DNA of 11,224 nt from an uncultured Clostridia bacterium. Lineage in GTDB: Bacteria > Bacillota > Clostridia > Oscillospirales > Acutalibacteraceae. This document shows positions 738 to 10,461 of the stretch, in pieces. The translations under genes were made by a program, and so were the position numbers. The DNA is taken from NCBI GenBank assembly GCA_946187095.1, contig CAMHPW010000023.1:1-11224 (forward strand), given 5' to 3'. How positions within the stretch are numbered: the first letter of the stretch is position 1; each line of letters opens with the position of its first letter. A model generated the notes under the pieces. That model was not told the DNA's origin. It worked only from the letters and a program-made list of their open reading frames with translations, and ran no database searches.

Positions 738-2423
738 TCAGTATGTTCTGAAATTGGATGTACTCCATGTTTCCTGATAGATATACATGGAAGTGCTGTT
801 CGGATCAAGGCAGTAGAAATAGTGATTGACATAGCCGCCCCAGCCGAGATTGTTGTTTTCGACCTGTGCGTCAAAGATATGGTGTCTGCCGTTGATATTC
901 GTGTCTACCCAGTAGTGATTGCCGTAGCCGCCTGCACTCATGCCGACAAGACCGTGAACAACATGAGCATCATAGCCGATCCTCTGCATGACAGCCGCCA
1001 GCGTACAGGCATAATCATAGCAGTTGCCGTATTTCTTTACAAGCGTGGAATAGGCGGAAATCACGATCTCCCTGTCATTGTATGAAGCATAGTTGATCCC
1101 GTATACAGGGGAATAGTCATAGCTGATATAGGCATAATTGATATTCGTTGCAAGATAGTCAAAGCAGGCTTTGACTTTATGTGCATTACTCATTCTCGAA
1201 TTGAGAATATCACCGAAAATGCTGTCTATTTTATCATCAAGCATTTTGGAATTTGTCTTGACAGGATTGAGTTTGGCGGAATTGAGGATATCGTCCGATG
1301 AACTCCACGGATATATCTGTACAGGTTCATTGACGGTCACTTTCATGACAGCGGTTTTTCCGTTGGCTGTCCTGACGGTGATATCGGCAGTACCGGGATT
1401 TTTGGCTGTAATAATGCCCTTGATATCCACTTCCGCTACATTCCTGTCACTGCTTGTAAACGTGATTTTGCTTGTATAGGAATTGCTCGGCAGGCTGTAT
1501 ATCACTCTGGAAGTATCATCGATATCAAGTTCAACCGCTGTCTGTTTCAGTGTGACGGAATCGGGGGCTTTTTTAACAGTTACTTTGCAGGTATCCGTTT
1601 TGCCGTTGCAGGTCGTCACGGTAATATTTGCCGTACCTTCTTTTTTGGCTGTGAGATTGCCTTTGGTGTCACACTCCACGATATTGCTGTTATCGGAAGA
1701 ATATACTCTTACACGGGAAGCTGTATTTTCGGGAACTGCAGCATGAAGTGTATATTTGTCATTCGGATTGAGTGTCAGCGACTTCGTTGTAAGAGCTACA
1801 GATGACGGTGCATTTTTGACCGTGATCTGACAGGTATCCGTTTTGCCGTTGTATATCTTTACGGAAATCGTTGCCGTACCGGCTTTTTTAGCCGTCATGA
1901 CACCATTCCTGTCAAATGAAACAATGCTTTCATCGCTCGAAGAATAGCTTCTGACACAAGCAGTTGTATTTGCCGGAACCGTCGCATAAAATCTGTAGGT
2001 TTCTCCGACACCCATTTCCAGAGAATGTATATTGAGCTTTACTTCCGAAGGTGCTTCATTCACAGTGACATAGCACATGGCTTTTTTGCCGTTATGCGTG
2101 ATGGCGGATATCGTTGCATTGCCGACACCCTTTGCAGTGACCTTGCCGTTTCTGTCAACGCTTGCAACGGAAGGATCGCTTGTCATCCACAACAGATTTT
2201 TTGATGTGGCAGTGAGCGGCAATACCTCGGATATGAGACTGTAAGTTTCACCTTTTCCTATGGTGATGGCGGACTTGTTGATCGAAACACCTTCGGCTGC
2301 TACAAACACTGTATCAGGCTGTGGTGCATACGCTATGACTGTATTTGCAGGTATCACTGATGCAGATGATATTGCGACTGCTGCCATAGTACAAGCTAAA
2401 ACTCTGTTGAATTTATTGTTCAT
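738..2423 (-). CDS. Secreted protein with four BIG2 Ig-like repeats and a C-terminal transglutaminase-like domain
   Basis: The 561-residue protein starts with a signal peptide (about residues 1-33; basic MNNKFNR then a hydrophobic core). Four bacterial Ig-like (BIG2) repeats follow at about 46-121, 127-202, 208-283 and 289-364, each with the typical pattern of a buried SxD/S..., a G.(V/I/L)TAK turn and a closing G.A.I(T/S)V strand. The C-terminal part (about 410-540) is a transglutaminase-like (papain-fold) domain with a complete triad: Cys468 in YGNCYDYACTLAAVMQRIGY, His503 in GNHYWVD and Asp518 in HHIFDAQVE. Family members are secreted or surface proteins that crosslink, cleave or bind proteins or peptidoglycan; the substrate here is unknown. 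No sortase motif or membrane anchor is visible, so it is probably released or loosely held at the wall. The ATG at 2423 is chosen because AAAGGA sits just upstream and the promoter -10 ends at 2461; the frame is open to 2492, but that would overlap the promoter. Confidence 0.85.
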   Translation of the reverse strand: MNNKFNRVLACTMAAVAISSASVIPANTVIAYAPQPDTVFVAAEGVSINKSAITIGKGETYSLISEVLPLTATSKNLLWMTSDPSVASVDRNGKVTAKGVGNATISAITHNGKKAMCYVTVNEAPSEVKLNIHSLEMGVGETYRFYATVPANTTACVRSYSSSDESIVSFDRNGVMTAKKAGTATISVKIYNGKTDTCQITVKNAPSSVALTTKSLTLNPNDKYTLHAAVPENTASRVRVYSSDNSNIVECDTKGNLTAKKEGTANITVTTCNGKTDTCKVTVKKAPDSVTLKQTAVELDIDDTSRVIYSLPSNSYTSKITFTSSDRNVAEVDIKGIITAKNPGTADITVRTANGKTAVMKVTVNEPVQIYPWSSSDDILNSAKLNPVKTNSKMLDDKIDSIFGDILNSRMSNAHKVKACFDYLATNINYAYISYDYSPVYGINYASYNDREIVISAYSTLVKKYGNCYDYACTLAAVMQRIGYDAHVVHGLVGMSAGGYGNHYWVDTNINGRHHIFDAQVENNNLGWGGYVNHYFYCLDPNSTSMYIYQETWSTSNFRTY

Positions 2424-2460
2424 AATAAAAATCATTCCTTTCTGTATCAGAACAGTTATG

Positions 2461-2489
2461 ATTATATAACAAACTTGTAACAATTGCAA
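2461..2489 (-). promoter_or_regulatory. Sigma-A type promoter of the BIG2/transglutaminase gene
   Basis: On the minus strand, TTGCAA (2489-2484) and a perfect TATAAT (2466-2461) are separated by 17 bp. Transcription should start near 2454, giving a leader of about 30 nt that carries the AAAGGA ribosome site. Confidence 0.75.
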
Positions 2490-2640
2490 CACCTTTTTAA
2501 TTTTTTGTATGCTTCAAGTAAAATGCACAATATATAAAAAGTTTTTTGTATAACTTAACCAATAAATTTCTATTAAATATGTCCAATTTCCAGATATCAA
2601 TTTCGTTAAAAACAACTAATGAAATAAATATCATAACATT

Positions 2641-2669
2641 ATGACAAATCGATTGAAATGTGTTATAAT
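2641..2669 (+). promoter_or_regulatory. Extended -10 promoter of the zinc-ribbon membrane protein gene
   Basis: ATGACA (2641-2646) and a perfect TATAAT (2664-2669) are 17 bp apart, and a TG at 2661-2662 makes an extended -10. This placement rules out the ATG at 2658 as the start of the following gene and supports a GTG start at 2709. The 2424-2708 gap otherwise holds only the divergent promoter pair and AT-rich sequence. Confidence 0.8.
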
Positions 2670-2708
2670 ACAGACAGCCAATTTTTGATAGTACAGGGCG
2701 GTGATAAA

Positions 2709-3650
2709 GTGACTGAAAGTGAATTTCATGAATTGATGATAACGGTAGGCTATCGCTATGAAAAAAAATCACAGTCTGCCTTCAACAGCTTTGAGGGATT
2801 CAGGACGATCATAGAATTCAATAAAAAAGACAGCAAATACTCTCTCAGAGTGAAAGCAGGCACAGATGATATATCATTACTGAAACAAAAATTAAAAAGC
2901 TATGCCGATTCCCATAAGAATCATGTCATGAAAGCGAAATATGCCGATAAATATATCAGGATCAATATCCGCATGACGATCGATTCGGAAATAGACAAAA
3001 ACGAACTCAAACAGCTTGTTCACTTCATGACGGAGCTTTTCAAAAGCGGAACGCTTGTTCCTCTGTGCAGCGTATGTTCAAGAAACAGGAAAACGGGCTT
3101 GTATATCATCGGCACAGAATTATGTGCCGTATGCGACAAATGCCTTGCACGAAAACAGCGGCAGTATGAAATACGCCGCAACAGGTTTGTCATGAAAAAA
3201 CAGAATATGCCGCTTGGTCTGATCGGTGCGGTTTTCGGGGCATTTTTAGGGGCATCCGTCTATATCCTGCTGTATCAGTTCATGCCGACTTTCGGTATGG
3301 GCGGTGTGATGATCATCATTCCGTCATTCATAGGCTTTGTCATCACAGGAAAACGTGCCACTGTACAGAGTGCCGTTGTATGTGCCGTCATTTCATGGCT
3401 GATCTATATTCTGGCGGAATATACGGCTATCGTTGCCAATATGGCTGTATTGATTGAAAGAGCAGGCGGCGGTATCGCCGTATCCGAAGCAATGGAAGTC
3501 ATCAATGCGAGCTTCAGCGATACTTCCTATCTCATGCCGATCATTGATGAGATCATCATGGGCACTATATTCATGGCAATCACAGGCGGTATTTATTTCC
3601 TCAAAAGATCACTGACAAGACCTTTCAAAATTTCCAACAACATTCTTTGA
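2709..3650 (+). CDS. Unrecognised membrane protein with a cysteine zinc-ribbon-like motif
   Basis: I do not recognise a named family. The 313-residue product has three parts. Residues 1 to ~115 are soluble and mixed alpha/beta. A cysteine cluster spaced C-x2-C-x15-C-x2-C-x2-C (Cys120, 123, 139, 142, 145) looks like a zinc ribbon and is followed by a basic stretch (ARKQRQYEIRRNR). The C-terminal half has about four transmembrane segments (roughly 169-192, 197-213, 219-240 and 278-298). There is no signal peptide, so the soluble part is probably cytoplasmic and tethered by its C-terminus. GTG at 2709 is chosen because GGTGAT sits immediately upstream and the TATAAT at 2664-2669 precedes it; an upstream ATG at 2658 overlaps the promoter. 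The gene stands alone between its promoter and a terminator. Function unknown. Confidence 0.75.
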   Translation: MTESEFHELMITVGYRYEKKSQSAFNSFEGFRTIIEFNKKDSKYSLRVKAGTDDISLLKQKLKSYADSHKNHVMKAKYADKYIRINIRMTIDSEIDKNELKQLVHFMTELFKSGTLVPLCSVCSRNRKTGLYIIGTELCAVCDKCLARKQRQYEIRRNRFVMKKQNMPLGLIGAVFGAFLGASVYILLYQFMPTFGMGGVMIIIPSFIGFVITGKRATVQSAVVCAVISWLIYILAEYTAIVANMAVLIERAGGGIAVSEAMEVINASFSDTSYLMPIIDEIIMGTIFMAITGGIYFLKRSLTRPFKISNNIL

Positions 3651-3652
3651 AC

Positions 3653-3670
3653 AATTAGCAATGAGCAATT
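3653..3670. repeat. Short 7-bp-period intergenic repeat
   Basis: Directly after the stop codon lies AATTAGC-AATGAGC-AATT, a 7-bp unit repeated about 2.5 times. It abuts the A-tract and stem of the following terminator. A different 7-bp-period tract occurs at another convergent gene end in this window (7603-7657). Confidence 0.5.
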
Positions 3671-3709
3671 AAAAAAGCAGTCAGTTCAAAAAACTGACTG
3701 CCGTTTTTT
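3671..3709. terminator. Bidirectional intrinsic terminator
   Basis: A perfect 10-bp stem (3677-3686 with 3692-3701, GCAGTCAGTT) has a CAAAA loop. It is flanked by six A on the left and a run of six T on the right, so it can terminate both the plus-strand zinc-ribbon gene and the minus-strand four-gene operon ending at 3721. Confidence 0.92.
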
Positions 3710-3720
3710 GTCTTATTGAA

Positions 3721-4392
3721 TCAGAGCTGATTCTGAGGTTCTGTATAGGGAAGCACAGCGATCTCAAGATTGCCGTTTTTGGTGCGGAGTTCATCGATAA
3801 AAGCCTTTTCTTCCGAGGGATCTTTCATCTGTATCTTGAAGGACAGTCTAAACATGGAACCCATGCCCGTTGTCTTGACACCTGCATTTTCCCAGCTTTT
3901 GAGATAGTGGGCGAATGTATCGTCAAATGCACCCGAATATTCGAGAGATTCGGGAATGGTGATTCTGAGCATTCTGTCCTCTGCCATGCTTTTGTGTTCA
4001 AATACAGGGATAAATGAGAGAATGAGGAATATAACTGCCATGCCGAGAAGGATCACAATGCCGTAGCCGATATAGCCCATGCCGAAAGCAATACCCGAAC
4101 CCATGGCGATAAGAATGGCGGCAATTTCATCTGCACTGCCCTGTGCACTTCTGAAGCGGATCAGGCTGAATGCACCGCCGATCGCCACGCCTGCACCGAT
4201 ATTTCCCTTGACGAATGCGATCACGGCTGCTACCATGAAAGGAATGATTGCCATTACCATGAAAAAACGTTTCTTGGCACGAATCTTGAAGGACATGATC
4301 CATGCATAAACGAAACCTGAAACAACGGCGGCAAGTGCCATGATAAAGAATTGGGCGGCTGTCGGGGTAGTGGTAAAAATAGAATCAAACAT
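3721..4392 (-). CDS. DUF4956 family membrane protein
   Basis: The 223-residue protein has an N-terminal half of about four membrane helices (roughly 13-33, 41-62, then a Gly-rich pair to about residue 128). It carries the family signature GGAFSLIRFRSAQGSADEIA followed by AILIAMGSGIAFGMGY. The C-terminal ~90 residues are a soluble, probably cytoplasmic domain. DUF4956 proteins have no established biochemical role to my knowledge, but in bacteria they commonly sit next to VTC-domain (polyphosphate polymerase fold) genes, as here: the VTC stop is 20 bp upstream. This suggests the two act together at the membrane, with DUF4956 perhaps serving as membrane partner or conduit (inference). ATG at 4392 has AAAGGAAGA 8-9 nt upstream. 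It is last in the operon and a terminator follows directly. Confidence 0.87.
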   Translation of the reverse strand: MFDSIFTTTPTAAQFFIMALAAVVSGFVYAWIMSFKIRAKKRFFMVMAIIPFMVAAVIAFVKGNIGAGVAIGGAFSLIRFRSAQGSADEIAAILIAMGSGIAFGMGYIGYGIVILLGMAVIFLILSFIPVFEHKSMAEDRMLRITIPESLEYSGAFDDTFAHYLKSWENAGVKTTGMGSMFRLSFKIQMKDPSEEKAFIDELRTKNGNLEIAVLPYTEPQNQL

Positions 4393-4412
4393 AAATTGAT
4401 CTTCCTTTCATT

Positions 4413-5126
4413 TCATAAATTTCTTGTGCGGAGAAGCTGATGTTTATAAGCCTCGCCGTATTTTGAAAAACTGCCTTTATAAATTTTGCCGTTTGTAAGA
4501 ATACTCGACAGCCACAGCGGTACAGCCTGCTGTACTTTGACTTCCAGTATCGTATAGCCGTCTTTCAAAAGAGAATTGCCGTCCATGGAAACCCTTAAAT
4601 CAAGGTCTTCATATCTGTAACGTGGATTGTGGTCGATTGTCAGGCGTAAATCGCCGTCAGGCTGAAAATAGGCTATCCTGTCATAGATAATCATGCAGGC
4701 AGGTACAAGCGTCTGATAATAGTCACGGAACGTTGTTATCTCTTTATTGATCTGACCGCCTGCACAGATATCGCCCTCACAGTCGAAAAATTTCTTTACC
4801 AATGGGATCGTTGACTGCACACGCCTTTTATAGACGATCCCGTAGGCTTTTCTCTTCAGTTCAAGAAATACAGGAGATGTATCTGTTGCGATTCCGTAGG
4901 AACGAAGTCTGATCTTTTCCTTGAAAGCGGGCTTTTCGATAGAAGTTCGTATCAGCCTGTAATTCGGTGTATCATAATAGAGAGAGGCTATCGAAGTAAG
5001 TCCGAATTTGTCTATTTTCATATGATCTTTAACGCTTTCTTTGAAATATTCCGTCTGTTCGGGTGACAGGATATATTTCATTTCATAGCGTTTCATGACA
5101 ACGATGGGATTGGATACGGCTGCCAT
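4413..5126 (-). CDS. VTC-domain protein (polyphosphate polymerase family, CYTH/TTM tunnel fold)
   Basis: The 237-residue protein matches the VTC domain, the cytosolic catalytic fold of eukaryotic vacuolar polyphosphate polymerase. In that family an eight-strand tunnel lined with basic and acidic residues binds triphosphate and metal. The expected charged strands are present: RYEMKY (Glu15, Lys17), LYYDTPN (about 49-55), KEKIRLRSYG (Lys69-Arg75), FLELKRK (Glu89, Lys91, Lys93), YKRR (100-102), LEVKVQ (Glu195, Lys197) and the C-terminal FSKY (Lys222). I see no missing tunnel residue, so it looks catalytically competent. There is no signal peptide or membrane helix; it is cytoplasmic, probably docked on the DUF4956 neighbour. 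The reaction (nucleotide phosphate to polyphosphate) is inferred from the family and not shown for bacterial members in this context. ATG at 5126 follows a full AAGGAGGT site, 15 bp after the kinase stop. Confidence 0.87.
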   Translation of the reverse strand: MAAVSNPIVVMKRYEMKYILSPEQTEYFKESVKDHMKIDKFGLTSIASLYYDTPNYRLIRTSIEKPAFKEKIRLRSYGIATDTSPVFLELKRKAYGIVYKRRVQSTIPLVKKFFDCEGDICAGGQINKEITTFRDYYQTLVPACMIIYDRIAYFQPDGDLRLTIDHNPRYRYEDLDLRVSMDGNSLLKDGYTILEVKVQQAVPLWLSSILTNGKIYKGSFSKYGEAYKHQLLRTRNL

Positions 5127-5141
5127 TTCGATACCTCCTTT

Positions 5142-6380
5142 TTAAAGTGCTGCTTCCAGAGTGAATATGCCGTTTGCGACTTTTGCGGAAACTCTGCCGT
5201 CATGTGCCTTCACGATATCCTTGACATAGGAAAGTCCCAAACCAACGGCATTTTTATCTTTTGCATTGTCAAGAGTCGTGAACCTGTCAAAAATCTGGTC
5301 GATACTGCCGTTGGGCAAGTCTGTATCATTCGTCTGCTGAATAATAATTCTGTCGCCCTGTTTCCTGAGAGTGAAAGATGCTTTTGAAAGAGAATATTTC
5401 AGGGAATTTTCGGCAAGTTCCGAAAGAACTTTTTTGATTGCCTGTTCGTCACCTTCAAGAGTGATATCAGGTGCTATGTCGGATTCAAGCTGTATATTCT
5501 TTGATTCAAATATATCTTTCTGACTTTCAATGAATTTGGCAAGCATACCCGAAAGATCAATATTGGAAACGGTCATGTCTTTTTCTTCAAAGATCGCCAA
5601 TGCACCGAGGTCTTTGACTAATTTTGTCATTTTTCTGACCTGTTTGTCAATGGCTTTTGTCTGTTCATCGGGACCGTTCTTTCGTTCAATGACTTCCGTA
5701 TTGGCACTGATGATCGTCAGCGGCATTTTGAAATCCTGTTCGATATTGGCAATGAATGCCTTTTGCTTTCTGTCGGCTTCATCAAACTGTTTGAAAAGGG
5801 ATTTTCCGACTTGGACAAGTACAAGATAGCTGATGAGCAATACAAGTACGTCACCGATGGCGGATATGATCAAAATCCTGTATGACGGCAAAAGCTCACG
5901 GCTTTGGTCTATCACGGTGACATAGATCCTGTCATCTTTCTGATACACACGGTATCTGTAAGTGAGATTTGTCCAGCCTGTCGAATTGCCTTTATAAAGA
6001 CTTCTTGCAAGCTGATAGGCTTCACTTTGCGTCAGTGCCGACATTCTGAATTCGACCAATTCGGGATTGCCGTCTTTTTCTTTCTTCGGGAATGAGTATG
6101 TGAAGAATCTCAAAGAAGCTCTCATTTCGGGGGAATCAGGTCCCATTTGGTCAAATCTCTTTTTGCGGGGAACATTTTCGGTATTTGACGTATTGTCACT
6201 ATTTTCCTGTTCGGGCTTGAAGAAATTGCCCGATGTATTGGAGATCATTTCTGTCATGCGGTCGGCATCCTCCGAGACCATTGTGAAGTTGATCACGTTG
6301 ATCACGGACAAAAGCACCGTCAGCAGTATGAAAACCGCCAGTTCCGCATACCAGACGAATTTTTTCCTGACTTTATCCAT
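5142..6380 (-). CDS. Membrane sensor histidine-kinase homologue lacking the phospho-acceptor His (pseudokinase candidate)
   Basis: The 412-residue protein has TM1 (about 9-34), an extracytoplasmic sensor region (about 35-166, with PDSPEMRASLRFF typical of a clostridial kinase subgroup), TM2 (about 168-190), a dimerisation helix and an ATPase domain. The dimerisation box reads FIANIEQDFKMPLT where active relatives read FI..xxHE(L/I)(K/R)TPLT. Gln215 (codon 5736-5738) replaces the His, Asp216 the Glu, and Met219 the Thr/Asn needed for phosphatase activity. The ATP-binding part looks largely kept: N-box ELAENSLKYS with Asn325, F-box IFDRF (363-367) and G2 motif VGLGLS (379-384). ATP could still bind, but His autophosphorylation should be impossible. 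The frame is undamaged and the gene overlaps the receiver gene by 8 bp (ATGGATAA), so this is not decay. ATG at 6380 is preferred over 6416, being close to that stop with GGTGG upstream. A phosphate acceptor elsewhere cannot be excluded. Confidence 0.85.
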   Translation of the reverse strand: MDKVRKKFVWYAELAVFILLTVLLSVINVINFTMVSEDADRMTEMISNTSGNFFKPEQENSDNTSNTENVPRKKRFDQMGPDSPEMRASLRFFTYSFPKKEKDGNPELVEFRMSALTQSEAYQLARSLYKGNSTGWTNLTYRYRVYQKDDRIYVTVIDQSRELLPSYRILIISAIGDVLVLLISYLVLVQVGKSLFKQFDEADRKQKAFIANIEQDFKMPLTIISANTEVIERKNGPDEQTKAIDKQVRKMTKLVKDLGALAIFEEKDMTVSNIDLSGMLAKFIESQKDIFESKNIQLESDIAPDITLEGDEQAIKKVLSELAENSLKYSLSKASFTLRKQGDRIIIQQTNDTDLPNGSIDQIFDRFTTLDNAKDKNAVGLGLSYVKDIVKAHDGRVSAKVANGIFTLEAAL

Positions 6381-6723
6381 TTTCAGCCACCGTCCTTTCC
6401 TGTGAGATATGTTCAAGTTTATCTGTCAGTTCCTGCGGCAGAAACGGCAGTCTGATACAGTCATCAGCCATTTCGACTTTTTCTTTTTTTGCCGTTATGA
6501 CAAGTGACGGTATCCTGTCATCTTTGAGAACTTTCAAAATCTCCCTGCATTTTATCCTTGGGATATTTTCATTGAGAATGACGGCATCAAATTTTTCTGC
6601 CGCCAATTTTGAGATCACCTGTGTGCCGTCAAAGACCGTCTGCACCGTATTTTCAAGAAGTTCCAGAAGTGTCTTGTATGACTTGAGAAAATCCCTGTCG
6701 GGATCGGCTATGAGTACATTCAT
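6373..6723 (-). CDS. Stand-alone receiver-domain protein lacking the phospho-acceptor Asp (pseudo-receiver)
   Basis: The 116-residue protein is a response-regulator receiver fold with no output domain. Alignment by motif: VLIADPD (one of two usual acidic residues kept, Asp7, with Pro8 replacing the second); FDAVILNENIP, where Asn51 (codon 6571-6573) stands at the phosphorylated Asp of D-L-h-h-L-D-h-x-M-P; VITA (Thr77 kept); and DDCIRLPF, where Leu92 replaces the Lys of K-P-F. Three of the chemistry residues are therefore altered and phosphorylation is unlikely. Such degenerate receivers work as constitutive protein-interaction modules. It leads the operon and overlaps the kinase gene by 8 bp, so the two are translationally coupled and made in similar amounts. 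ATG at 6723 has GCGGTGA upstream. An in-frame ATG at 6768 also has AGGG before it, but lies too close to the likely promoter. Confidence 0.82.
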   Translation of the reverse strand: MNVLIADPDRDFLKSYKTLLELLENTVQTVFDGTQVISKLAAEKFDAVILNENIPRIKCREILKVLKDDRIPSLVITAKKEKVEMADDCIRLPFLPQELTDKLEHISQERTVAENG

Positions 6724-6778
6724 ATTATCTTCACCGCTTTCTGTCTTTTCTACATTGTAAAATGACATTTTTTCCCTG

Positions 6779-6807
6779 ATTTTAAAAATTTTTTAAATAA
6801 AAGTAAA
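6779..6807 (-). promoter_or_regulatory. Candidate promoter of the pseudo-two-component/VTC operon
   Basis: On the minus strand TTTACT (6807-6802) and TAAAAT (6784-6779) are 17 bp apart, and would start transcription near 6772. The region is very AT-rich, so chance matches are likely; an overlapping TTGAAA farther upstream is an alternative -35. If correct, the ATG at 6768 would be almost leaderless, favouring 6723. Confidence 0.4.
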
Positions 6808-6814
6808 TAATTTC

Positions 6815-6828
6815 TTGAAAGTTTTCAA
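6815..6828. promoter_or_regulatory. Palindrome in the divergent promoter region, operator candidate
   Basis: TTGAAA-GT-TTTCAA is an inverted repeat with 6-bp arms and a 2-bp centre. It lies 8 bp behind the candidate -35 of the leftward operon and 27 bp upstream of the -35 of the rightward cohesin-like gene, a position from which one regulator could affect both. No regulator is identified. Confidence 0.3.
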
Positions 6829-6854
6829 CAGTCGGCAAAAGTACATTTATTCGA

Positions 6855-6883
6855 TTGCAATAAAGATACTGCTGTGCTAAAAT
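6855..6883 (+). promoter_or_regulatory. Extended -10 promoter of the cohesin-like gene
   Basis: TTGCAA (6855-6860) and TAAAAT (6878-6883) are 17 bp apart, with TG at 6875-6876 forming an extended -10. The leader of about 25 nt carries AGGAG at 6900-6904 before the ATG at 6913. Confidence 0.75.
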
Positions 6884-6912
6884 AGAGAAAAATTCCGACA
6901 GGAGATTTTGCC

Positions 6913-7614
6913 ATGAAAAAGGCTTTTATTCTTGCATTGTGCGTATTTTTCCTATTTTCCTCAAGAGTATATGCGGCACATGATGACGTATCGCTTTCCA
7001 TGCACCTTGATGGCGAACTCCAGCCTGAAGAGGCTTTTGACGTATATCTTTCTATTGACAGTGAAGAAACAGGCTGCTGCCGTATCGGATTTTCCTACAG
7101 CGAAAATGATCTGGAACTGAAAAATATCTCCGTCAAAGATAAAAGCAAAGGCGATATCCTGTATTACAATGACACAGACGGAAAAGCAGATATCATTTAC
7201 ATATCTGAAGATATGCATGATATCGTATTGAGATTTGCCCCGAAAAATGCGGCTGAAACATATCACTTTGAGGCTTTCCTGTATGAAGCCTGTGACCGTG
7301 AGGGAAATTATCTCAAATCCGACACGATATTTGAATTTTCGCTTGATACGGCTGTCAATGCCGAAATGTCAGATCATTCCGTTACGGAAAAAGTCAGAGT
7401 GAAAAATGACGTTTCCAAAAGCTATGTGCAGTCAGCCGAAGTAGAGGTATCCGCCGAACAGGACTATTCGGGAGAATATCAGGTCAGGGAATCCGCCAGT
7501 CAGACAGCTTTTTTGATATTTGCAGGGATCGCCGCTGTATTTGCGGCAGGGTTTTGGGCAGTCTATAAAATGGGATTCAAGCATGGAAAACACACCGTCA
7601 AAAATGAGGAATAA
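6913..7614 (+). CDS. Secreted, C-terminally membrane-anchored protein with a cohesin-like domain
   Basis: The 233-residue protein has a signal peptide (1 to about 21, cleavage near VYA-AHD) and an extracytoplasmic beta-rich domain (about 23-145). A charged linker follows (about 146-195), then a single transmembrane helix (about 198-218) and a short cytoplasmic tail (FKHGKHTVKNEE). The beta domain has the flow of cohesin/carbohydrate-binding folds: a hydrophobic strand, the turn EEAFDVYLSI, then CRIGFSYSENDLELKNISV, which resembles the cohesin (h-G-h-x-h-x-Y-D) region. Cohesins bind dockerins in cellulosomes, but related domains also serve other surface roles, and no dockerin appears here. Treat the cohesin label as structural resemblance. 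The gene diverges from the pseudo-kinase operon, so the two could be co-regulated. Its last codons and stop lie inside a repeat (7603-7657), so its C-terminus may have been set by that repeat. Confidence 0.7.
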   Translation: MKKAFILALCVFFLFSSRVYAAHDDVSLSMHLDGELQPEEAFDVYLSIDSEETGCCRIGFSYSENDLELKNISVKDKSKGDILYYNDTDGKADIIYISEDMHDIVLRFAPKNAAETYHFEAFLYEACDREGNYLKSDTIFEFSLDTAVNAEMSDHSVTEKVRVKNDVSKSYVQSAEVEVSAEQDYSGEYQVRESASQTAFLIFAGIAAVFAAGFWAVYKMGFKHGKHTVKNEE

Positions 7615-7657
7615 GGAATGTGGAATATTTGTCATTCCTCACTCCTCATTCCTCATT
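7603..7657. terminator. Imperfect inverted repeat of GAGGAAT units, likely bidirectional terminator
   Basis: Two 25-bp arms (7603-7627 and 7633-7657) pair at 21 of 25 positions around the loop TTTGT. Each arm is built of near-tandem 7-bp GAGGAAT units. The left arm contains the last codons and TAA stop (7612-7614) of the cohesin-like gene, and the right arm ends 3 bp before the stop of the leftward small gene. Short T-runs flank it: GTTTT on the right and, on the minus strand, CATTTTTG. It probably terminates both genes. The repetitive structure suggests a dispersed intergenic repeat rather than a purpose-made terminator. Confidence 0.65.
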
Positions 7658-7660
7658 GTT

Positions 7661-8044
7661 TTAAAGGCTGTCGAAAAAATCCCTGACCGCTCTGAGAGCG
7701 GACAAGTTATTCATGGAAGATTCCCTTTCGGAAATGCCATAGACGGCATTTTCATATTTCACGGAAACCGAAACAGACGGTGCATCAAGTGCGATATACT
7801 TTTTCAGACATTCATCATGCGGTTCACTGAAGTCGTACTTGTCAAGCAGTTTTTCAAGCTCACCGAATTTTTCCGCTGAAAGCCCGATATGCTTTTCGAT
7901 AACAGGCAAGTTGAACCATTCCTGTTTTTCAAGATCAAAGAAAATTTTTCCTTCACTGTTCACAGCGGCTCTGGCAATATATTTTCCGCCGCTCATGCCG
8001 CCTCTTTCATAATAGCCGCATGATATCAATGCACCTTTGTCCAT
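7661..8044 (-). CDS. Small soluble protein of unknown function, coupled to yajC
   Basis: I do not recognise this 127-residue protein. It has no signal peptide or membrane helix and looks like a compact cytoplasmic alpha/beta protein. A Gly-rich start (GYYERGGMSGGKYIARA) is followed by a strand with Phe/Trp residues (KIFFDLEKQEWF), a charged helix (SAEKFGELEKLLDKYDF), a second strand pair (SVSVSVKYENAVYGI) and a C-terminal helix (LSALRAVRDFF). It begins 3 bp after the yajC stop, with AGAGGA 8 nt before ATG 8044, so it is translationally linked to yajC and shares its promoter. No link to protein export is visible in its sequence; the coupling is the only clue. Confidence 0.7.
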   Translation of the reverse strand: MDKGALISCGYYERGGMSGGKYIARAAVNSEGKIFFDLEKQEWFNLPVIEKHIGLSAEKFGELEKLLDKYDFSEPHDECLKKYIALDAPSVSVSVKYENAVYGISERESSMNNLSALRAVRDFFDSL

Positions 8045-8047
8045 GAT

Positions 8048-8443
8048 TCAATCCTCTTTTTTAGTCGTCTTGTCTTTTTTGGAGTCCGTTTCGGACTTCT
8101 TTTTCTCGTCTTTTTTAGGCTGCTTGCCGGGAGTATCAACAGATGATATCGCCCATTTCTTGAATCTCATTCTTGTCTTGTCGCTGCCTGTTTCGACGAT
8201 AATGGTCTCATCATCATCACGGACTGCGATCACCCTGCCGACAATGCCGCCTATCGTTGTAACGTCATCACCGATTTCGATATTGTTGCGAAGTTCTTCT
8301 TCCTGTTTCTGTTTTTTCCTCTGGGGGAACAGGAACAGAAAATAAGCCGCTACCAATACCACTACCCATATGCCGAGTGAGATCGCCATCTGCCAGCCGT
8401 CAGCCTGTGTACCTGCCGCTGCACTGAGAATACCGTAATTCAT
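8048..8443 (-). CDS. yajC: Preprotein translocase subunit YajC
   Basis: The 131-residue protein has a single N-terminal membrane helix (about 20-39, ending LFLFPQRKKQKQ) and a cytoplasmic YajC domain. The typical signature is present: FPQRKKQK, then NNIEIGDDVTTIGGIVGRVIAV and a beta strand with RMRFKKWAISSVD. YajC associates with SecDF-SecYEG and supports protein export. The tail after about residue 103 is unusually long, Lys/Asp/Ser-rich and probably disordered. ATG 8443 follows AAAAGGAGAGG; the frame runs up to 8473 but that ATG has no good ribosome site. A tgt gene lies immediately upstream, the classical tgt-yajC order of many bacteria; secD is not in the window. It has its own promoter (8478-8506). 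Confidence 0.93.
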   Translation of the reverse strand: MNYGILSAAAGTQADGWQMAISLGIWVVVLVAAYFLFLFPQRKKQKQEEELRNNIEIGDDVTTIGGIVGRVIAVRDDDETIIVETGSDKTRMRFKKWAISSVDTPGKQPKKDEKKKSETDSKKDKTTKKED

Positions 8444-8477
8444 ATTTTTCCTCTCCTTTTTAAAAAATAACAAGTCA

Positions 8478-8506
8478 ATTATAACAGCTTTTTATCATGT
8501 CTGCAA
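8478..8506 (-). promoter_or_regulatory. Promoter of yajC and the small downstream gene
   Basis: On the minus strand TTGCAG (8506-8501) and a perfect TATAAT (8483-8478) are 17 bp apart in the 70-bp gap after tgt. Transcription should start near 8471, giving a leader of about 28 nt. No terminator is visible between tgt and yajC, so read-through may add to this promoter. Confidence 0.75.
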
Positions 8507-8513
8507 GTCTTAT

Positions 8514-10392
<1,879 letters not shown>

Positions 10393-10432
10393 AAAAGTAA
10401 CTTCCTTTCTTAAAAACAATTCATATAAAATC

Positions 10433-10461
10433 ATTGTATAATATTTTAAATTTTTTGTCAA
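10433..10461 (-). promoter_or_regulatory. Consensus promoter of the DUF2185-tgt operon
   Basis: On the minus strand a perfect TTGACA (10461-10456) and TACAAT (10438-10433) are 17 bp apart. Transcription should start near 10426, with a leader of about 34 nt carrying AAAGGAAG before ATG 10392. Confidence 0.85.

Follow-up and report, generated by a model that had tools for sequence, protein, structure and literature searches.

The 11,224-nt stretch of DNA analysed here (hereafter the window; contig C23 of an 83%-complete, 1.69-Mb draft genome of an uncultured Clostridia bacterium) carries on its minus strand a four-gene unit, encoding a receiver, a histidine kinase, a VTC-domain protein, and a DUF4956 membrane protein in that order, in which both halves of the two-component pair have lost their phospho-acceptor residues. 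The reading favoured here, at a probability of roughly 0.55, is that the pair was converted, as a pair, into a phosphotransfer-free sensor or scaffold acting by contact, probably on the VTC and DUF4956 proteins (VTC-DUF4956). It is very probable that the pair functions with no phosphotransfer and is preserved by selection, and the chances that VTC-DUF4956 is its direct target are about even. Judged from sequence comparison, the phospho-acceptor-free (pseudo) state is ancient, derived, and inherited across genera and families.

Residues lost, kept, and newly fixed

The residues of a His-Asp relay were missing from the window proteins, with Gln215 at the His site of the kinase and Asn51, Pro8, and Leu92 at the phospho-Asp, second metal Asp, and Lys sites of the receiver (Table 1). 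An earlier sequence-only reading of this DNA had reported Gln215 and Asn51 in two intact frames overlapping by 8 bp, all of which was found again in the DNA, both frames being open and the overlap lying at 6373-6380; Pro8 and Leu92 of the receiver, Met219 of the kinase, and the lack of a DNA-binding domain in the regulator come in addition. With a HisKA/HATPase_c fold that carries Q215 and M219 in place of catalytic residues, the kinase is a pseudo-histidine kinase, and the receiver, a PF00072 match without the key catalytic residues, is a pseudo-receiver. Since the His, the receiver Asp, a complete metal site, the Lys, and the phosphatase Thr are all missing, a His-Asp relay or dephosphorylation of the partner is implausible.

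Kinase orthologues (matches at E <= 1e-60) were detected in 47 of the 64 genomes sampled from the genus, the window genome included, and were not detected in the other 17, many of which are incomplete drafts. Among the 47 kinases, site 215 was highly variable (N18 Q10 S9 K4 H3 R2 T1), with His missing in 44, and the phosphatase Thr was found in none at site 219 (M30 V9 L7 H1). Outside the genus, site 215 was occupied by K3 S1 N1 R1 in six members of other genera and by K6 R1 S1 in eight members of other families. In a database sample that partly overlaps the genus genomes, in which 104 of 120 listed kinases and 95 of 112 listed regulators (mostly about full length) were aligned, His was present in 3/104 kinases and Thr219 in 0/104. 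As His is missing in only 0.9% of HisKA domains (722/76,471) according to a published review (PMC12632262), its loss in 44/47 genus and 101/104 database kinases exceeds chance; the same source gives 2.0% (3,111/152,269) for receivers without the Asp.

The ATPase domain retained the N box and G2 box of a nucleotide-binding domain, and the invariance of the N box Asn and the G2 glycines in the genus suggests that nucleotide binding may still be possible. The G1 box was of the NDTxL type rather than DxGxG, with Asn351 in 46/46 genus kinases. Loss of the G1 box was considered as a mark of the pseudo group and rejected, as most canonical relatives also lack a standard G1 box (Asn351 in 39/39, glycine at 353 in only 3/39). 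Moreover, residue 217 was newly fixed as Phe in 47/47 genus, 6/6 other-genus, and 8/8 other-family kinases and was Ile or Leu in 39/39 canonical relatives. Glu214, found in 46/47 genus kinases, was likewise considered as fixed throughout the lineage and rejected, as outside the genus Glu occurred in only 4/6 and 1/8 kinases, with Asn as the alternative.

For the receiver, located in 44 of the 47 genomes (in G010, G065, and G013 the kinase frame reaches the contig end), 42 sequences were scored at sites 8, 51, and 10-11, and 44 at the Lys site 92. Asp51 was missing in 32/42 (N18 D10 S9 G3 E2), site 8 held no Asp at all (P28 Q6 A4 S2 E2), and site 92 held no Lys (L30 F14), so that all ten receivers keeping Asp51 lacked both Asp8 and Lys92. 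Likewise, Asp51 was retained in 4/6 other-genus and 7/8 other-family receivers, all 14 of which had neither the Lys nor the second metal Asp and were paired with kinases without His. In the database sample, Lys was found in 0/95, Asp8 in 0/94, and Asp51 in 18/95 receivers. A newly fixed Arg10-Asp11 was present in 42/42 genus, 6/6 other-genus, and 8/8 other-family receivers. Joint conservation of Gln215 with Asn51, which the sequence-only reading had proposed as a check, and simultaneous loss on both sides, which it had stated, did not hold, given the variability of sites 215 and 51 in the genus and the Asp51 retained outside it beside kinases without His. No scored pair combined His with Asp (of the 42, three have the His and ten the Asp), and coupled loss of the two residues was rejected because such a lack of overlap has a chance probability of 0.43.

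The structural model of the window kinase (mean predicted local distance difference test score (pLDDT) 78.9; predicted template modelling score 0.42) showed a long helix, an alpha/beta sensor domain, a second long helix, a HisKA-like helical domain, and a confident ATPase domain; the two long N-terminal helices flanking the sensor domain are read, from the model, as putatively transmembrane. The expectation that the rest of both folds was kept was thus upheld for the ATPase domain apart from its lid, where the model was uncertain over the nucleotide site (residues ~361-380, block pLDDT 71 and 59), and less clearly so for the helical domain (~211-270), which reached a block pLDDT of only 43-65. 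The Protein Data Bank (PDB) matches of the kinase were headed by a bacteriophytochrome and included CpxA, HK853, and, lower down, DivL (4q20). In locus L066 (G007; 1659-3335), the kinase frame encoded 559 aa, with about 150 extra residues located after the first helix and ahead of the sensor domain.

Distribution, ancestry, and selection

The gene order proved to be highly conserved. In the genus, the receiver gene directly preceded the kinase gene in 44/44 genomes where it was found, the VTC gene directly followed the kinase gene in 45 of the 46 genomes with VTC on the stretch (the exception, G022, having a masked stretch inside the kinase), and the DUF4956 gene directly followed VTC in 44/44. 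Among the 21 genomes with more than 300 bases past DUF4956, 15 (G018 included) next showed a homologue of the G018 downstream protein, which, together with its counterparts in L057, L058, and L121, is a Cthe_2159 carbohydrate-binding protein (Pfam, 214-226 bits). In locus L161 (G303; 3346-10350), the genes run head to tail from a canonical pair through a Cthe_2159 protein and the pseudo pair to VTC and DUF4956, and in L164 (G169; 3924-5498) an alpha-amylase-like protein (60.3 bits) lies upstream of the pseudo pair instead of the Cthe_2159 protein. VTC was present as two overlapping frames in L037 (G062) and was split across two contigs in L047 (G056), through either assembly error or a real break, with the pair open in both.

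A search with the single kinase sequence returned only four close loci, and the near relatives recovered with the kinase were uncultured Ruminococcus sp. RUG14692 and RUG14527, Clostridiales RUG327, and Ruminococcaceae UBA1213. In a family sample of 250 genomes, the pseudo form was found in six, belonging to five other genera; 60 further genomes matched at E <= 1e-28, and all 34 of these that were inspected carried the canonical form. In an order sample of 394 genomes, 15 genomes spanning five families, the window genome included, matched the kinase at E <= 1e-60; 12 of these were new to the analysis, and all eight of the new ones that were inspected were pseudo. A single-strain mutation was rejected in view of the orthologues in 47/64 genus genomes, as was an assembly artefact, the same state being present in 44/47 genus genomes and 14/14 members outside the genus.

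The canonical relatives, chosen by profile score and independently of the active-site residues, had His and Thr in 39/39 kinases and Asp51 in 39/39 scored, Asp8 in 38/38 scored, and Lys in 40/40 receivers. Two of their loci, G173 (L186, 438-5781) and G081 (L198, 566-5913), showed the same gene order, with a canonical OmpR-type pair followed by VTC, DUF4956, and a Cthe_2159 protein, and carried the intact motifs GHE[IL]KTP in the kinase and ILDIMMPK or ILDLMMPG together with KPF in the regulator, as well as a full Trans_reg_C domain. In this operon type, seen in two genera, a VTC-type protein and a carbohydrate-binding protein are linked with two-component signalling. Homologues with His and Asp in the same operon context, which the sequence-only reading had named as the sign of a single-strain mutation, do therefore exist; they are nevertheless distant (25-31% identical) and lie outside the pseudo lineage, so that a single-strain mutation does not follow. 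As canonical pairs share the gene order with VTC, DUF4956, and the Cthe_2159 gene, the pseudo pair is most simply descended from such an operon.

In a kinase tree of 91 sequences, the 52 pseudo rows lay on one side of a branch and the 39 canonical rows on the other (Shimodaira-Hasegawa-like approximate likelihood ratio test, SH-aLRT, 100; stem 2.1 changes per column); this tree and the VTC tree considered below are quick searches with SH-aLRT support only, and both carry a long-branch warning. On the kinase tree, site 215 changed at least 18 times among the pseudo rows, the presence or absence of His at least twice, and Asp51 versus any other residue at least five times among the genus rows. 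Because many lineages keep Asp51 without Thr219, the metal Asp, the Lys, and nearly always the His, the simplest account is that Asp51 disappeared later and on more than one occasion, and the three His215 cases look like drift because the Q, N, K, H, S, and R states differ by one or two base changes. As such, sites 215 and 51 look released rather than selected for particular residues; selection for Gln215 or Asn51 specifically was rejected, both sites being variable.

The pair, as far as profile scores tell, travels with one subtype of VTC-DUF4956. The VTC profile built from the genus scored 390-481 bits at pseudo-pair loci outside the genus and 31-225 bits at 19 canonical-pair loci, with G039 (366 bits) as the exception. 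At this locus, L131 (8403-9871) from another family, a canonical pair stands upstream of VTC and DUF4956 genes that belong to the pseudo-associated subtype (366 and 406 bits), possibly as a horizontal transfer or an intermediate.

Ratios of non-synonymous to synonymous substitution (dN/dS), calculated by the Nei-Gojobori method (NG86), were 0.04-0.12 for the kinase (14 pairs, with values for 13 and none for G056-G055), 0.09-0.16 for the receiver (11 pairs), 0.02-0.05 for VTC (G056, with 40 comparable codons, left out), and 0.01-0.05 for DUF4956. In three of these genome pairs, a canonical kinase gave 0.021, 0.062, and 0.052 versus 0.060, 0.069, and 0.097 for the pseudo-kinase, and those of the 25 listed canonical pairs that yielded a value, beyond these three, ranged over 0.046-0.129. 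The medians over all pairs with dS <1.5 were higher (kinase 0.155, 23 pairs; receiver 0.296, 63 pairs; VTC 0.042, 43 pairs; DUF4956 0.067, 62 pairs) and are taken to be biased by saturation. On these codon comparisons, purifying selection clearly acts on the pair and is at most about threefold looser than on a working kinase. No stops were found inside the kinase matches of the 47 genus genomes, and the 44 receivers were open. Decay is unlikely because the loss is old and shared, the frames are open, and dN/dS is far below 1, and the newly fixed residues (F217 and R10-D11) beside the released ones argue for re-use. The sequence-only reading, which had proposed a phosphotransfer-independent role in place of decay and suggested the synonymous versus non-synonymous comparison, is borne out on this point, and the additional receiver losses point the same way.

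The favoured reading and its alternatives

In the mechanism proposed under the favoured reading, the sensor domain would still sense something, and the ATPase domain, with its N and G2 boxes kept, may still bind nucleotide; the ligand, perhaps together with nucleotide, would set the shape of the kinase, and the change would be passed by contact to a docked pseudo-receiver. The output would be allosteric control or assembly of a VTC-DUF4956 membrane complex and not transcription. The contact-based signalling half of this mechanism follows from the residues lost and kept, and the VTC-DUF4956 half is suggested by gene order, co-inheritance with one VTC-DUF4956 subtype, and a DNA-binding domain that was deleted more than once. 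Already put forward in the sequence-only reading, control of the VTC protein is still drawn from the gene neighbourhood.

Several observations weigh against this reading. Five congeners carry the same VTC-DUF4956 subtype (66-71% identity, 376-432 bits) without an adjoining pair or an orthologue in the genome, and VTC-DUF4956 therefore does not require the pair. In the VTC tree, which is midpoint-rooted with weak outer nodes, includes G255 and G273 twice, and has a group 'canonical two-component system nearby' that denotes any VTC from DNA retrieved with a canonical kinase at its centre, the VTC genes of these five congeners fall among the pair-associated ones, which suggests, within the limits of those weak nodes, secondary loss of the pair. 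In addition, most relatives retain a shortened winged-helix-like domain, and a transcriptional role outside the lineage of the window is possible. The pair evolves faster than VTC and DUF4956, fitting a looser role, and Glu is present at the receiver metal site 8 in two genus members (G066 and G020). Docking of the receiver would fall to the helical domain, a low-confidence part of the kinase model, and the absence of pairs with both His and Asp is uninformative by itself at a chance probability of 0.43. Finally, the putative contact between the pair and VTC-DUF4956 is deduced from gene order and co-inheritance.

The alternative that survives best, although improbable, is a phosphorylation-independent transcription regulator, in which the pseudo-kinase steers a DNA-binding pseudo-regulator by contact, like other atypical OmpR-type regulators. 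The length of the regulator bears directly on it. In 37 of the 39 rows of the canonical list, 119-125 residues follow the PF motif of the receiver, the two exceptions being a misfiled pseudo-regulator of G273 and a paralogue in G231 at the edge of the fetched stretch, whereas the 47 pseudo rows had 96-100 residues in 40 and 19-23 in seven. The DNA-binding domain is thus about 23 residues shorter in most pseudo members than in canonical relatives, and it is absent in the window. An AlphaFold2 model of one full-length pseudo-regulator (P0124; mean pLDDT 94.8, with block pLDDT >90 in the receiver part) confidently showed a winged-helix-like domain of strands, one helix (144-154), a long recognition-type helix (161-177), and a hairpin, and its best PDB matches were OmpR-type regulators, e.g., PrrA. 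As a single helix precedes the recognition-type helix, helix 2 of the helix-turn-helix is missing in the model. Furthermore, Pfam Trans_reg_C fell below its cut-off in all three full-length pseudo-regulators tested, compared with 78.5 and 74.5 bits in the canonical G173 and G081, and was annotated in none of the 112 listed regulator homologues. The window protein stops after the receiver and so lacks the C-terminal winged helix with helices 1-3 of the OmpR/PhoB family, and receiver-only forms also occur in the genus in G071, G004, G011, G022, and G051 beside the window genome (G000), as well as in G138, G329, and probably G615. On the kinase tree, which does not include G022, the domain was lost at least twice within the genus. 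It is concluded that the DNA-binding domain lost helix 2 in an initial shortening and later disappeared altogether in the lineage of the window.

Next, and also unlikely, comes a role as decoy for, or modulator of, a separate canonical two-component system in the cell, with the pseudo-kinase or pseudo-receiver docking on canonical partners in the way that DivL binds phosphorylated DivK. Canonical partners are at hand, as a canonical SHELKTP kinase was present in all 16 congener loci fetched for comparison, in G303 and G239 the retrieved stretch carries a further kinase gene, and weak profile matches to one were obtained in G016, G048, and G040; moreover, DivL, described as a His-less kinase fold reading a response regulator (PMC4211667), is among the fold matches. 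However, no second two-component system was seen within the window of 11 kb, the phosphatase Thr is gone too, and the constant position beside VTC-DUF4956 in different families suggests that the target is local.

Phosphotransfer via another residue, such as the acidic residue 216 or Asp51 where it is retained, is very improbable. Residue 216 is acidic in 44/47 genus kinases (E27 D17), Asp203 is near-invariant among kinase homologues, Asp51 is present in 10/42 genus receivers, and His215 persists in three kinases. However, no scored receiver, even among those with Asp51, has the second metal Asp or the Lys, the three kinases with His are partnered by Asn or Ser receivers, and the helical domain of the 104 kinase homologues contains no invariant or nearly invariant His, Tyr, or Cys. 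Least credible of all is a dispensable pair in ongoing decay, to which the faster evolution of the pair relative to its neighbours, the drift at sites 215 and 51, and the 17 genus genomes without a detected orthologue would be suited, and against which stand the low dN/dS in the computed pairs, the open frames, the newly fixed residues, and a lineage spanning five families.

Known systems and the window locus

Pseudo-receivers and pseudo-histidine kinases are each already known, and loss in both partners of one operon would be the new element; no described operon with the phospho-acceptors gone from both partners was found in the literature, which was searched by title and abstract start with few subscription journals covered, so that novelty is not proven. 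According to one review (PMC12632262), the second metal position of pseudo-receivers is non-acidic in about 80%, only two of 20 described atypical regulators are non-orphan, and how pseudo-receivers switch is termed a mystery. Such receivers are common, and almost all of those described are orphans. Like the pseudo-receivers described there, the window receiver keeps the PF00072 fold and has lost the phospho-Asp, the second metal Asp, and the Lys; unlike them, it has a partner kinase that is present, adjoining, and itself without a phospho-acceptor. DivL of Caulobacter (PMC4211667) has Tyr550 in place of His and neither kinase nor phosphatase activity; an allosteric mode of action has been proposed for it. 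The window kinase resembles it as a histidine-kinase fold without the His, and differs in that DivL reads a phosphorylatable regulator, whereas the operon partner here lacks the phosphorylation residues and site 215 is not fixed. The operon of G173 and G081 has the same gene order and related genes as the window and differs by its intact His, Asp, and Lys motifs and its full Trans_reg_C domain.

For the putative target, Gram-positive pel loci are reported to contain accessory sets of CotH, a polyphosphate polymerase, and DUF4956 (PMC7112168). The window likewise places a member of the polyphosphate polymerase family beside DUF4956; unlike those sets, for which the accessible text mentions no two-component genes, it has the pair, and the ten window proteins scanned by Pfam include no pel or CotH protein. 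The PF09359 match identifies the VTC domain of the candidate target, the polymerase activity of which is predicted from the family, and no PDB match at E <= 0.01 was obtained for this protein by sequence.

The eukaryotic VTC complex combines a VTC catalytic domain with membrane partners and an SPX sensor domain. If the favoured reading holds, the window unit would resemble it in having a VTC domain, membrane partners, and a separate sensing part, and would differ in that no SPX domain was found among the scanned window proteins. A bolder version, offered tentatively and doubtful as it stands, is that the pair serves a bacterial VTC-DUF4956 membrane complex as a nucleotide-gated sensory subunit without catalytic activity, in which extracellular sensing and ATP binding would be passed from the pseudo-kinase via the pseudo-receiver to the enzyme; if true, this pair would do the job of the built-in sensor domain of the eukaryotic complex. 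The lineage offers an adjoining, co-inherited partner that is itself without a phospho-acceptor, and canonical relatives that share the gene order. It also includes natural variants for every step, some with and some without the Asp, some with a shortened DNA-binding domain and some with none, and some lacking the pair altogether. Phosphate-free two-component signalling thereby becomes directly testable, with a candidate enzyme as output.

Table 1. Coordinates of the four-gene unit in the window and of the diagnostic sites of the pair
Feature	Position	Strand	Description
Pseudo-receiver	6373..6723	-	116 aa, receiver domain only, without DNA-binding domain; Response_reg 38.8 bits (cut-off 30.2)
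Pseudo-histidine kinase	5142..6380	-	412 aa, ATG at 6380; HisKA 31.4 bits (cut-off 26.9), HATPase_c 46.3 bits (cut-off 26.4)
VTC-domain protein (family of polyphosphate polymerases)	4413..5126	-	237 aa; PF09359 142.8 bits (cut-off 23)
DUF4956 membrane protein	3721..4392	-	223 aa; PF16316 36.6 bits (cut-off 30.6); last conserved operon gene in the window
Kinase codon 215	5736..5738	-	CAG, Gln where the phospho-accepting His is expected; context ...IANIEQDFKMP...
Kinase codon 219	5724..5726	-	Met where the phosphatase Thr is expected
Kinase N box Asn325	5406..5408	-	Conserved in 46/46 scored genus kinases and 104/104 database homologues
Kinase G2 box GLGL, residues 380-383	5232..5243	-	G380 and G382 in 45/45 scored genus kinases
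Receiver codon 51	6571..6573	-	AAT, Asn where the phospho-accepting Asp is expected; context ...DAVILNENIPR...
Receiver codon 8	6700..6702	-	Pro where the second metal-binding Asp is expected
Receiver codon 92	6448..6450	-	Leu where the active-site Lys is expected

In the junction between the kinase and VTC genes, AGGAGG precedes the VTC start. Downstream of DUF4956, in the place taken by the Cthe_2159 gene in many congeners, the window contains a gene for a convergent 330-aa protein (2658-3650, plus strand) and one for a Big_2/transglutaminase-like protein (738-2492, minus strand), an arrangement also found in G071. Elsewhere in the window, an Imm33-like domain protein (9637-10461; 35.8 bits, cut-off 27) is encoded next to a tRNA-guanine transglycosylase gene.

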